Of a DNA stretch of 23,777 nt, positions 14,067 to 17,936 are shown in pieces (position 1 is the stretch's first letter; each line of letters begins with the position of its first letter). Location of the stretch: positions 1 through 23,777 of IMG/VR virus record IMGVR_UViG_3300044237_000025. One strand, written 5' to 3'. Both the position numbers and the translations under genes were made by a program. Under the pieces are notes generated by a model. The model did no database searches. It had not been told where the DNA came from and saw only the letters and a list, made by a program, of their open reading frames with translations. Origin of the DNA: a virus.

Positions 14067-14922
14067 TCTTATACTCCTCTAATAGTTCTACATACTGTAC
14101 AAGTTTAGGGTACTGTGCCTTTGATTTTACCTGTGGCGCTTCAATAAGATTAGGCCAGCAAGCATTTTTAAAATCACAGAACGTGCAGTTTTTATTCAAA
14201 ACGAAATTACCCGTAGGCTTTTTGTAAAAGAACTCTTCTTCAGGTTCAAAGCAACGCTTAAATTCGTTTGCTTGCACAGTCTGTACAGTTTCTTCAATGT
14301 GGTTTACCTCCTTGTCAATGTCAATACCCGTAGCAGGAACATATTTAAATTTTCCGTTAGACTTGTTTACTACCCACCAACCACCAGCACGTTTACCTGA
14401 TGCTTTAGCGTAGCCAGCGAGTTGTCCAATATAGCCAAAACCATCACCGTTAGATAAGGTTTCGTAAGAGTCAAATTTATGACGGTACGACCAATCAGAT
14501 GCAGACTTAACATCGTCAACGGCATCATCAATGACAAGATCATACGTTCCGTTAATCTCTGTTCCATCTGACAGAGTAAGCGTGACATTATCTGAATCAT
14601 CATACTCTACTCCTGCTTCTGTAAGTATACCCTTGAAGACAGCTTCAACGATGTCTCCAAGCATCATGTTCATCACGAAGTTACCAGCTTTAGGTTGCGC
14701 TGCCTCTGGCTTGTTCTTTTCAAACCATAGCTGACAGGTAGGTCTGCCAACATTAGACATGCGCAACTTAAAGTCTTTTGGATTCCTCTCGCCAAACTGA
14801 CGAGCGAGTGCATCAATGATATCTGCGGCAACTCTGTCCATAGTTTCTTTTGACATGGACGACTTACCTTTTGCGGCATCATTCATGTACTTATGTAGTG
14901 CCAGTTCAGCGGGATGGTTCAT
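14059..14922 (-). CDS. Cas4/RecB-like exonuclease with Fe-S cluster motif
   Basis: The 287-residue protein has the PD-(D/E)xK nuclease core: D128 in NGTYDLVID, D137-x-K139 in VDDVKSAS, and Q167 and Y171 in GYIGQLAGY. C63 (RPTCQLWF) together with C246, C249 and C255 (CTFCDFKNAC) gives the one-plus-three cysteine layout of Cas4 and AddB enzymes, which hold a 4Fe-4S cluster. In phages such proteins fill the place of the T7 gp6 exonuclease: host DNA breakdown, primer removal or recombination. The gene starts in a TAATG overlap with the ssDNA-binding candidate, with GAGG upstream. Polarity and substrate are unknown. Confidence 0.82.
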   Translation of the reverse strand: MNHPAELALHKYMNDAAKGKSSMSKETMDRVAADIIDALARQFGERNPKDFKLRMSNVGRPTCQLWFEKNKPEAAQPKAGNFVMNMMLGDIVEAVFKGILTEAGVEYDDSDNVTLTLSDGTEINGTYDLVIDDAVDDVKSASDWSYRHKFDSYETLSNGDGFGYIGQLAGYAKASGKRAGGWWVVNKSNGKFKYVPATGIDIDKEVNHIEETVQTVQANEFKRCFEPEEEFFYKKPTGNFVLNKNCTFCDFKNACWPNLIEAPQVKSKAQYPKLVQYVELLEEYKNG

Positions 14923-15857
14923 TATGCTACCTCACTTTCTATTTCAATAAAGTCCTCGACAAGTTCTGCTTCGTCTTCTGAAATGGCTATAACGCTTTCT
15001 TCTTGACGCTGTGTAGCTTTCTCGTCCCACTCTTTACATATGTAGTCATTAAAGTTTTTCACCCACTCCAAGAAACCAACAAGAAGTTCTTCGTCCTCTG
15101 GTTTGATTTCATGTGTTACAGAAGTATCTGCCTTACACTTTGGCGTAAAGAAACTGCTGCCATTAGGAAGATCATTTTTTACATTCTCAAAGAATAGAAT
15201 GTTATGCATTAGCGGTAGCCTTTCCTGCCGTGCAAATACACCAAACTGATCACCCACAGTCTTGTAAGCATCCTTGTTATCAATCTCCCAGATAAATGGA
15301 GTTGATACTTCAGACATTTCGTTTCCGTTGGCATCCACTGGATTGTCCAGCGTTACCACTCCAAACACTACACGAACACGCTTAATCTGTCGGATCAAGT
15401 CCTGCATATCTGTCGGCAGTGCTTTGAAGTCTTCAATGTACCCAGATGGTTTGCCACAGTTAAACCTACCTGTATTGTCTTTCAGGTCAATGTTTAGTGT
15501 GTCTGACATGATCGTGCGATGGAAGCTACCCTTTGGCTCATTTGGCTTTGGGTTTTTATTTGCTATATACCTACGATACATAAACCTCTGCATAAAAGGC
15601 CGCATGGTAATGGTCTTGCTATATGCAAATTGGGATGTGTCTCCGTCAATAATTTCAAGACGGAACATGCCTCCCTCAATAGTTTCTACATTAGTCAGCC
15701 TACCATTGACCTCTGCTTGCCCCATAACTGGTTGATGCCAAATGCGCAGACGATTGAGAGTGTTAGTCTTTTTATTAGACTTACCATCATCGACGATGCC
15801 CATCATCTTTGCCATTGCAGCGTAATTACCAGTATTAATAGTCGTTAGTTCACTCAT
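14922..15857 (-). CDS. Probable ssDNA-binding protein
   Basis: The 311-residue protein begins MSELTTINTGNYAAMAKMMG. It has central conserved-looking words such as ITMRPFMQRFMYRRY, GRFNCGKPSGYIEDFKALP and STPFIWEIDN, and an acidic C-terminal tail (ISEDEAELVEDFIEIESE). I recall this family from marine podoviruses next to the DNA polymerase. The acidic tail and its place between polymerase and exonuclease fit an ssDNA-binding protein working like T7 gp2.5. I see no classical OB-fold signature, so the function is inferred. AGGAG lies 6 bases before the ATG. It is the first gene downstream of a strong sigma70-like promoter, fitting a protein needed in quantity. Confidence 0.55.
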   Translation of the reverse strand: MSELTTINTGNYAAMAKMMGIVDDGKSNKKTNTLNRLRIWHQPVMGQAEVNGRLTNVETIEGGMFRLEIIDGDTSQFAYSKTITMRPFMQRFMYRRYIANKNPKPNEPKGSFHRTIMSDTLNIDLKDNTGRFNCGKPSGYIEDFKALPTDMQDLIRQIKRVRVVFGVVTLDNPVDANGNEMSEVSTPFIWEIDNKDAYKTVGDQFGVFARQERLPLMHNILFFENVKNDLPNGSSFFTPKCKADTSVTHEIKPEDEELLVGFLEWVKNFNDYICKEWDEKATQRQEESVIAISEDEAELVEDFIEIESEVA

Positions 15858-15887: not shown

Positions 15888-15916
15888 GTTATATCACGCT
15901 ACGTCCTTTGTGTCAA
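15888..15916 (-). promoter_or_regulatory. Sigma70-like promoter before the ssDNA-binding gene
   Basis: On the - strand, TTGACA (15916-15911, full -35 match) is followed after 17 bases by TATAAC (15893-15888, five of six for -10). The expected start is near 15881, about 24 bases before the ATG at 15857. The -35 box lies inside the last codons of the polymerase gene, whose stop is in the spacer. It would give the SSB-to-MazG block its own transcript. Confidence 0.75.
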
Positions 15917-17936
15917 GCCAATTCGGACCTATTTTTGCTTCTAAAAGCATAGGAACATTTAGATTGACTCTAAAAGAGTTGTTTATCAACTCTGTAAGAT
16001 TGTTATTAACATCATTGATGTGCCACAATACTTGTGCCTCTTCATCAGGATGTATATCAATGACAACCGAATCATGCACAGTGTTTACAATGCAGCTATT
16101 CATATCGGATAGTCTCTTTTCTATTTCAATAAGAACAACGGGAACGATGTCAGCAGTTGCAAATCCCTGCACTGGATAATTCTTTATCTGCGTAAAATAA
16201 GATACAGTCCCGTTCATTTTTCTTACAACATTAGGAAAAGCATACTGTCGGCCTGATGGCGTTGTTATCATCTTAGTTGTTAGAGCCTCTTTAGCCAATC
16301 GGGAATGCCAATCTGCGATGCCTTTATACTTCTCCGTGAAGTGTGTGTAGTATTCTGCCTCTGCCGCTGTTCTACCGTATCCTGTGGCACCGTAGAGGGG
16401 CGCAAACGTGTGCGCTTTCGCAGTCTGCCTATCCGTAGGCTGACCAGCATCGGTAATAACTTTAGCGGTGTAACTGTGTACATCAAACCCAGTAGATACT
16501 TCATCAATAGCAACTCCATCTTGAGATAAGAAAGCAGCAGCCCTGAACTCCAACTGTGCAAAGTCAGCTTCCATAATCTTGCCGCCTTCCCACCGTGATA
16601 CGAACACTTTCTTCACAGGGAATGTTCCACCACGTGGCATGTTCTGCATGTTTGGATCAGCACCAGAGAAGCGACCAGTAGCTGTGCGGTGCTGTAGTAG
16701 ACGGACATGCAGTTTACCGTCATCTTTAATGTGTGTTTTTATTCCTTCTACAAAAGACGATAGATAAGTGTCTAGCGCACTCAAACGCTTTACCTTGCTT
16801 AAGAATAGGATTGCATCGTGCATGTCATTCTGACGAGCAAAACTCTCAAGGATGTCTAAGTTACCTTTGCTAGTAGTAAAGCCATTAGCACTGACCCACT
16901 TTGCATCTGGTGCAGTAAACCGTAGGCCAGCGATACGATCAGATTCTATAAACACATAACCAAATCCATCACAATCTTTGCAACTGTTAGGCCGTGCATA
17001 CTTGTTGCCATCTTTCTTTATGCGAAAGACCTGTCCCTTTCCTTTACACACTGTACACTGTCGTGGCTCTTTACGATAAACAACCTCACTGTTTTCTTTC
17101 ATAACAGATTTATATTCTTGCTTGGACATGTATGGATCAAAGTTGTTTTGCCACATTGCTTTGTCAATAGGCTTACGACTATAGATAACTTGAGACAATT
17201 GCTCTGGACTATTTAAGTTAACGTGACGATGCCCCATCAGATGCTGCACCATACGCTTTAGTTCTCCATTGAGTTTGCGTTTTTCAGATTCAAATTCTTC
17301 ACGAACCTCATTCAAAACTGTTTCATCAACCTCAAACCCACGCTGGTAAATCTTAGCCAGCACGACAGCAACTTGATTGGACAGTACAACAGTATCCATC
17401 AGACCTGCATACTCTTTGCTCAGTAGCTTTGCATACTGCCTGTCAGACAACTCCTGTGTCGCATGAAGGTCAGCCACAAGATACTCCGTCAGTTCATTGT
17501 ACGGTATGTCTCTGGTGCTTACACCCTGTTTGAAATATTCTTTAAGCGTGTCCTGCTTCTGCCAACTTAGTTCATAGCGTTGCGCACATGCATCAAGAGA
17601 CAGTGGTTCTTTCTGTCCACGCTGCATAACATACTCTGCCAGCATTGTGTCAAACACAGGGCCATCATACTTGAAGCCAGACTCCCACAACCACACAAGA
17701 TCGTGAGGGGCATTGTGGCATATCAAAATGGTAGCTTCATCCAGCATCATTTGTACACGCTCGTAGTAGTCTTCCTGATTGGGACGGTCAGCGTGGTCAA
17801 ATGGGAACGTCAGGCACTGGCCTTGGTCTGTTAGCATACCAACCATTACAAGTGAGTTAGTAGGCTCAAACGGATCAAGGTGCATCTTACCGTCCCGGTG
17901 TGTCACCGTATTTTCTACATCAAGTGTTAATTTCAT
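15894..17936 (-). CDS. Family A DNA polymerase with inserted DnaJ-type zinc finger
   Basis: This is a replicative polymerase of 680 residues. The 3'-5' exonuclease shows D6 and E8, N75 and D79, and Y152 and D156. The polymerase part shows motif A with D458 (ADFAQLEFR), motif B R503-K507-F511-Y515 (KAHTFAPLYG) and motif C H621-D622 (VHDS). F511 corresponds to position 762 of E. coli Pol I, where T7 has Tyr. Between the two domains (about 294-326) sit two CxxCxGxG words, CTVCKGKG and CKDCDGFG, half of a DnaJ zinc domain. This partial DnaJ insertion was described for phage HMO-2011. The start is in an ATGA overlap with the preceding gene. Confidence 0.95.
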   Translation of the reverse strand: MKLTLDVENTVTHRDGKMHLDPFEPTNSLVMVGMLTDQGQCLTFPFDHADRPNQEDYYERVQMMLDEATILICHNAPHDLVWLWESGFKYDGPVFDTMLAEYVMQRGQKEPLSLDACAQRYELSWQKQDTLKEYFKQGVSTRDIPYNELTEYLVADLHATQELSDRQYAKLLSKEYAGLMDTVVLSNQVAVVLAKIYQRGFEVDETVLNEVREEFESEKRKLNGELKRMVQHLMGHRHVNLNSPEQLSQVIYSRKPIDKAMWQNNFDPYMSKQEYKSVMKENSEVVYRKEPRQCTVCKGKGQVFRIKKDGNKYARPNSCKDCDGFGYVFIESDRIAGLRFTAPDAKWVSANGFTTSKGNLDILESFARQNDMHDAILFLSKVKRLSALDTYLSSFVEGIKTHIKDDGKLHVRLLQHRTATGRFSGADPNMQNMPRGGTFPVKKVFVSRWEGGKIMEADFAQLEFRAAAFLSQDGVAIDEVSTGFDVHSYTAKVITDAGQPTDRQTAKAHTFAPLYGATGYGRTAAEAEYYTHFTEKYKGIADWHSRLAKEALTTKMITTPSGRQYAFPNVVRKMNGTVSYFTQIKNYPVQGFATADIVPVVLIEIEKRLSDMNSCIVNTVHDSVVIDIHPDEEAQVLWHINDVNNNLTELINNSFRVNLNVPMLLEAKIGPNWLDTKDVA

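Follow-up and report, generated by a model that had tools for sequence, protein, structure and literature searches.

DNA polymerases of HMO-2011-type phages carry a short cysteine-rich segment that goes by the name of a partial DnaJ domain, and the question raised by the locus described here is what such a segment does in a polymerase. Descriptions from 2019 (PMC6918029) and 2022 (PMC9038755) credit every polymerase of this type with a central, partial DnaJ domain containing two CXXCXGXG words, situated between the exonuclease and polymerase domains, and cite the original genome paper for it. The domain serves as an identification criterion for the group in PMC9038755 and PMC8528129, and the GenBank record of phage HMO-2011 annotates PF00684 on the polymerase gene. 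In the accessible portions of the literature mentioning both HMO-2011 and DnaJ, we found no experiment on the function of the domain. The observation is real, conserved, and already in the literature (2019, 2021, and 2022); added here are the placement of the segment in the thumb, its single gain, its basic charge, and an insert-free sister clade.

In the window analyzed, which is the whole 23,777-base virus record IMGVR_UViG_3300044237_000025, the genes are arranged as in HMO-2011-type phages: integrase, primase, DnaB-like helicase, endonuclease VII, DNA polymerase, hypothetical protein, Cas4-like exonuclease, endonuclease I, and class II ribonucleotide reductase (RNR). The replication module of the group (primase-helicase-polymerase-hypothetical-exonuclease-endonuclease-RNR) is present, and the order is alike in outline to gp10 to gp18 of HMO-2011; in the window, helicase and polymerase are separated by a gene for endonuclease VII. 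The polymerase matches PF00476 (E = 8.1e-52) and PF01612 (E = 4e-8), the family A polymerase and 3'-5' exonuclease combination by which HMO-2011-type enzymes are recognized, and is 67.9% identical to the DNA polymerase of Puniceispirillum phage HMO-2011 over 100% of the length. Exonuclease residues D6, E8, D79, Y152, and D156 are invariant across the family alignment. Membership was defined by identity to known members (25% or more, across 80% or more of the length) together with a position within their clade; the window polymerase passes the identity threshold, is placed by the tree inside the clade of insert-bearing enzymes (the zinc clade), and has the two-word DnaJ-like domain between its catalytic domains that PMC9038755 takes as diagnostic. 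The polymerases of HMO-2011, roseophages CRP-1, CRP-2, and CRP-3, and pelagiphage HTVC033P share its domain order and four-cysteine insert at 36 to 68% identity, with neighboring genes alike in outline. We see no essential difference from these phages and regard the window phage as another member of the group.

Table 1. Features of the polymerase locus (positions within the window)
Feature	Position	Strand	Basis or remark
Family A DNA polymerase gene, 680 aa (3'-5' exonuclease and polymerase)	15894..17936	-	ORF, Pfam, identity to HMO-2011
3'-5' exonuclease domain match	17442..17774	-	Pfam
Thumb insert, residues 257-351, ~95 residues	16884..17168	-	Alignments; not in sister clade; ordered in AlphaFold2 models
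First CxxCxGxG word, CTVCKGKG, residues 294-301	17034..17057	-	In frame; Cys in 108/108 (nr90)
Basic hairpin loop between cysteine pairs, residues 302-318, QVFRIKKDGNKYARPNS	16983..17033	-	Charge, nr90 set
Second CxxCxGxG word, CKDCDGFG, residues 319-326	16959..16982	-	CxxCx(G/A/T/S)xG in relatives
Polymerase (palm/fingers) domain match	15915..16862	-	Pfam
Putative SSB-like partner gene, 311 aa, acidic C-terminal tail	14922..15857	-	Directly downstream of polymerase

Several peculiarities of the lineage were observed along the way. Motif C reads VHDS, where Pol I has VHDE (polymerase residues 621 to 623; window 16068-16076), and since H621, D622, and S623 are invariant in both the zinc clade and its insert-free sister clade, serine stands in place of the motif C glutamate throughout the lineage. 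In Alcaligenes phage QDWS535 (L086:1983-3898), the family A polymerase is annotated as two adjacent genes of 396 and 241 aa, with the junction between the exonuclease/thumb part and the palm. HMO-2011-type contigs also occur in metagenome bins assigned to Flavobacteriales and Neomarinimicrobiota (L192/L193 and L197/L198; the two bins hold contigs that agree in name and length), and one (L194) occurs in a bin labeled "Euryarchaeota"; these are probably misbinned rather than evidence of hosts.

The initial annotation had reported two CxxCxGxG words at about residues 294 to 326 (window 16965-17065) that form one four-cysteine zinc site between the exonuclease and polymerase domains, and had noted the same insertion in HMO-2011. 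Both words are in frame within the 680-residue reading frame, the span given was correct to about 8 bases, and the site lies between the two catalytic domains; its presence in HMO-2011 is borne out by sequence comparison, the GenBank record, and the published descriptions. The pattern C-x2-C-x21-C-x2-C occurs in 81 of the 81 closest sequences, and both CxxC pairs are found in each of the 235 collected family members of at least 640 aa, separated by 21 residues in 232 and by 33 in 3. Because the cysteine pattern is kept in all relatives examined, the words are not a chance occurrence. Among 108 nonredundant relatives (the nr90 set, with pairwise identity below 90%), G299, G310, and G326 occur, like the four cysteines, in every sequence, residue 307 is always K or R, and K308 is kept in 98%. 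Residue 324 of the second word is glycine in 60% only and otherwise mostly Ala, Thr, or Ser, so that the second word is often not a CxxCxGxG and the constant element consists of the four cysteines and selected glycines. The four cysteines probably bind one structural zinc. The first third of the insert is variable, with a mean commonest-residue frequency of 0.49 compared with 0.75 in palm and fingers. That the insert varies at most positions and least at the cysteines and turn glycines is what would be expected if the zinc hairpin were purely structural, stiffening an extension of the thumb and touching no partner directly; we return to this alternative with the charge of the loop.

How far the name DnaJ should guide interpretation depends on the comparison with other zinc modules. 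PF00684 matches the window polymerase at 22.9 bits over profile positions 13 to 54, which are words 2 and 3, the Zn II pair, and the best local match is to 1exk; the description of the insert as half a DnaJ domain therefore stands. The curated cutoff of that profile is 32.7 bits, and it was reached by none of the five polymerases scored (the four relatives gave 29.0, 26.3, 19.6, and 14.9 bits). DnaJ has four CXXCXGXG words and two zinc sites, and the window polymerase has two words; a Pfam search of the 680-aa protein gave no match to a J domain with its HPD motif. The same profile gives 20.7 to 23.8 bits, over positions 16 to 51, to UvrA-like frames of ~950 to 1,000 aa in about 20 bacterial genomes, and the two such matches checked by sequence are UvrA (GGRCEACQGDGV...CETCKG). 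Anti-TRAP scored 24.6 in HMO-2011; it and the lambdoid antiterminator Q have similar zinc hairpin words in other proteins and contexts. Searched against the PDB, a profile of the polymerase family's hairpin found E. coli DnaJ (1exk) at E = 3e-6 and UvrA at E = 1, and a fold search with the insert alone placed the DnaJA2 zinc domain nearest (Foldseek probability 1.00, E = 0.028, 3.3 Å), with DNA-bound UvrA2 also matched (probability 0.87, 2.0 Å over 35 columns). The insert thus resembles DnaJ in its CxxCxGxG pair, similar spacing, and best profile and fold matches, but differs in having two of the four words, in lacking a J domain, in the 21 rather than 18 residues between its pairs, and in a lysine-rich loop where DnaJ has QGFF. 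UvrA offers a CxxCxGxG ... CxxCxG pair and an equal PF00684 score but is an unrelated host protein with an acidic loop. Since all five polymerases fall below the cutoff and UvrA modules score as well, the DnaJ label is weak functional evidence: "DnaJ-like zinc hairpin" is a fair description, and the function that "DnaJ domain" implies is not supported by these sequence comparisons.

These results bear directly on the idea that, by mimicry of DnaJ, the insert attracts the chaperone DnaK/Hsp70 or a further host protein, for example thioredoxin; the initial annotation had suggested recruitment of a host chaperone or replisome protein. The J domain, the part of DnaJ that drives DnaK, is absent here, as is one of the two zinc sites, and QGFF, present in eight of eight DnaJ segments among the sequences listed, is replaced by the lysine-rich loop. 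The nearest solved sequence relative is nevertheless E. coli DnaJ, the nearest fold is that of DnaJA2, the matched words are the Zn II site, and DnaJ takes part in the replication of phage lambda, a parallel that PMC9038755 points out. Thioredoxin fares no better as the recruited factor, as T7 polymerase binds it at a different insertion point. We found nothing in support of chaperone recruitment, which is unlikely; given the subthreshold PF00684 score and the equal claim of UvrA, mimicry of DnaJ is kept only as a low-ranking and most improbable rival.

Structure prediction, proposed earlier as a check, yielded a confident AlphaFold2 model of the whole polymerase (76-sequence alignment; mean pLDDT 91.6, pTM 0.85) with an ordered hairpin. 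Blocks of 10 residues within the insert have pLDDT values of 84 to 93, the cysteine hairpin lies between strands 287-293 and 327-335, and the insert also folds when modeled alone (mean pLDDT 84.1). The arm, as modeled, is ordered and continuous with the thumb. A fold search with the whole model returned ordinary Pol I structures, the sole phage enzyme among the matches listed being phage G20c Pol I, the paper on which does not mention zinc.

Alignments with relatives put the zinc hairpin at the center of the insert. On one side, NLNSPEQLSQVIYSRK, immediately ahead of the insert, is aligned to Klenow FNLSSTKQLQTILFEKQG; on the other, NGFTTSKGNL, immediately behind it, matches up with KGAYKTDKATI of the insert-free polymerase of Stenotrophomonas phage StenR_269; these flanks place the insert in the thumb, in the loop that follows the H1 motif (N-x-S-x2-QL; N240-x-S..QLSQVIY). 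The thumb deletion that Minnick and colleagues made in E. coli Pol I reportedly comprises residues 590-613, which we take to be the same loop. The thioredoxin-binding domain of T7 polymerase lies before H1, which starts at T7 N335; this site was placed by eye from the motif because MAFFT misaligned T7 in the H1/insert region. In the window polymerase, the insert follows H1 instead. The earlier remark that the zinc site is near the T7 thioredoxin site holds insofar as the two are neighbors at the thumb tip and fails insofar as they are different sites on opposite sides of H1, and identity of the insert with the T7 thioredoxin-binding site was rejected on that ground. T7 gp5 offers a thumb insert of similar size, bearing basic residues, in a family A phage polymerase; it differs in lying before H1, in having no paired-cysteine zinc words, and in requiring host thioredoxin. 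Judged from motif order, the HMO-2011-type insert and the T7 domain are independent insertions, near one another but separate.

The nearest insert-free relatives (StenR_269, L191, and L210-L230) form a clade that adjoins the zinc clade. In a tree built from sequences from which the insert had been removed, its distribution requires one gain and zero losses (support 95/89; 96% of bootstrap trees); T7 and a few distant rows sit on long branches in this tree, and the contrast between the zinc and StenR-like clades rests on moderate ones. Repeated gains or losses were rejected in favor of this single change. A search of 50,697 phage records with the insert only retrieved 12 records, all HMO-2011-type. 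Just upstream of its polymerase, StenR_269 encodes a thioredoxin-domain protein (L087:1388-1654).

The insert is also set apart by its charge. Over the 108 sequences, it averages +8.7 and the rest of the polymerase -11.9; between the cysteine pairs the mean is +5.5 and the minimum +4, and this segment carries K or R at 305, 307, 308, and usually 318. The equivalent segment averages +2.1 (range, 1 to 3) in 30 bacterial DnaJ proteins and is acidic in four UvrA proteins (-2 to -4), indicating that the basic loop is a property of the HMO-2011-type family and not general to the DnaJ-type word. In L180, L181, and L084 (roseophage CRP-738), the loop is 12 residues longer, with 33 rather than 21 residues between the pairs, and is still basic. 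A purely structural knuckle would have no need of a loop whose charge never falls below +4, and we therefore consider that explanation improbable.

The reading that we prefer is that the insert is a zinc-braced arm of the thumb that grips the product duplex and raises processivity, a proposition that we regard as evenly balanced. According to this proposal, a lysine-rich arm would have been grafted once into the thumb tip of the HMO-2011-type family A polymerase; its four cysteines would coordinate a single structural zinc, fixing the base of the beta-hairpin, and the loop, with its basic residues at 305, 307, 308, and usually 318, would run along the backbone of the new duplex. Such contact would slow dissociation and make the enzyme processive by itself, with no need to borrow a factor such as thioredoxin. 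Precedents for a DNA grip exist in related settings: E. coli Pol I is less processive and less accurate when its thumb is truncated (PMC10061031, citing Minnick et al. 1996), in T7 the insert in the thumb serves as an intrinsic clamp on DNA by way of basic residues, lysines exposed by thioredoxin (PMC5984650), thumb inserts of plant organellar polymerases have been modeled in contact with duplex DNA (PMC7699545), and a hairpin joined to the third zinc module of UvrA touches DNA (PMC7835731). In the UvrA module the equivalent loop is acidic, so that a zinc hairpin close to DNA does not have to bind through that loop, and the longer loop in three members means that the exact geometry is not fixed, which weighs against a DNA grip. 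The evidence fits that reading better than it fits contact with a chaperone, and processivity is a plausible role; the earlier suggestion that the insert replaces a processivity factor is possible and close to what we propose, so that the initial interpretation is supported in part. More tentatively, a DnaJ- or UvrA-like zinc hairpin may have been turned into a built-in processivity arm, a factor-free counterpart of the T7 thioredoxin clamp at a different insertion point in the thumb.

Also counting against a DNA grip is that basic patches can dock acidic protein tails, and the main rival is built on this: the insert would be a docking platform for the phage replisome (an SSB-like protein or the primase/helicase), its basic surface holding an acidic tail. 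The neighboring 311-aa protein, possibly the single-strand DNA-binding protein of the phage, is a candidate partner with a strongly acidic tail, the 40 C-terminal residues carrying a mean charge of -10.6 across 111 relatives. The T7 SSB tail binds the thioredoxin-binding domain (PMC7699545), and for a C. perfringens A-family polymerase SSB is predicted to bind at the thumb tip (PMC10061031). The neighbor has, however, no Pfam, PHROG, or PDB profile match, to an SSB or otherwise, and in HTVC033P-like phages its tail reaches just -4.8. Insert and tail charge are correlated (Spearman, +0.66, uncorrected for kinship) such that a more basic insert accompanies a less acidic tail; simple charge-matched docking of insert and neighbor tail was rejected for this wrong sign of covariation, with the same lack of correction for kinship. 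We consider docking a serious but doubtful alternative to DNA gripping. The QDWS535 counterpart of the 311-aa protein ends in MEDDIPF, which resembles an SSB tip.

HMO-2011-type phages are a globally abundant marine group, and the partial DnaJ domain that defines them is a published marker. Its placement in the thumb, together with nearest relatives that are free of the insert, turns a curiosity of naming into a testable question. If the insert is a DNA-gripping arm, these phages would have evolved their own zinc-braced hold on DNA where T7 borrows host thioredoxin, the arm might provide a module for engineering processive Pol I-type enzymes, and a processivity device would be a constant feature of a phage group that ranks among the most abundant in the ocean.
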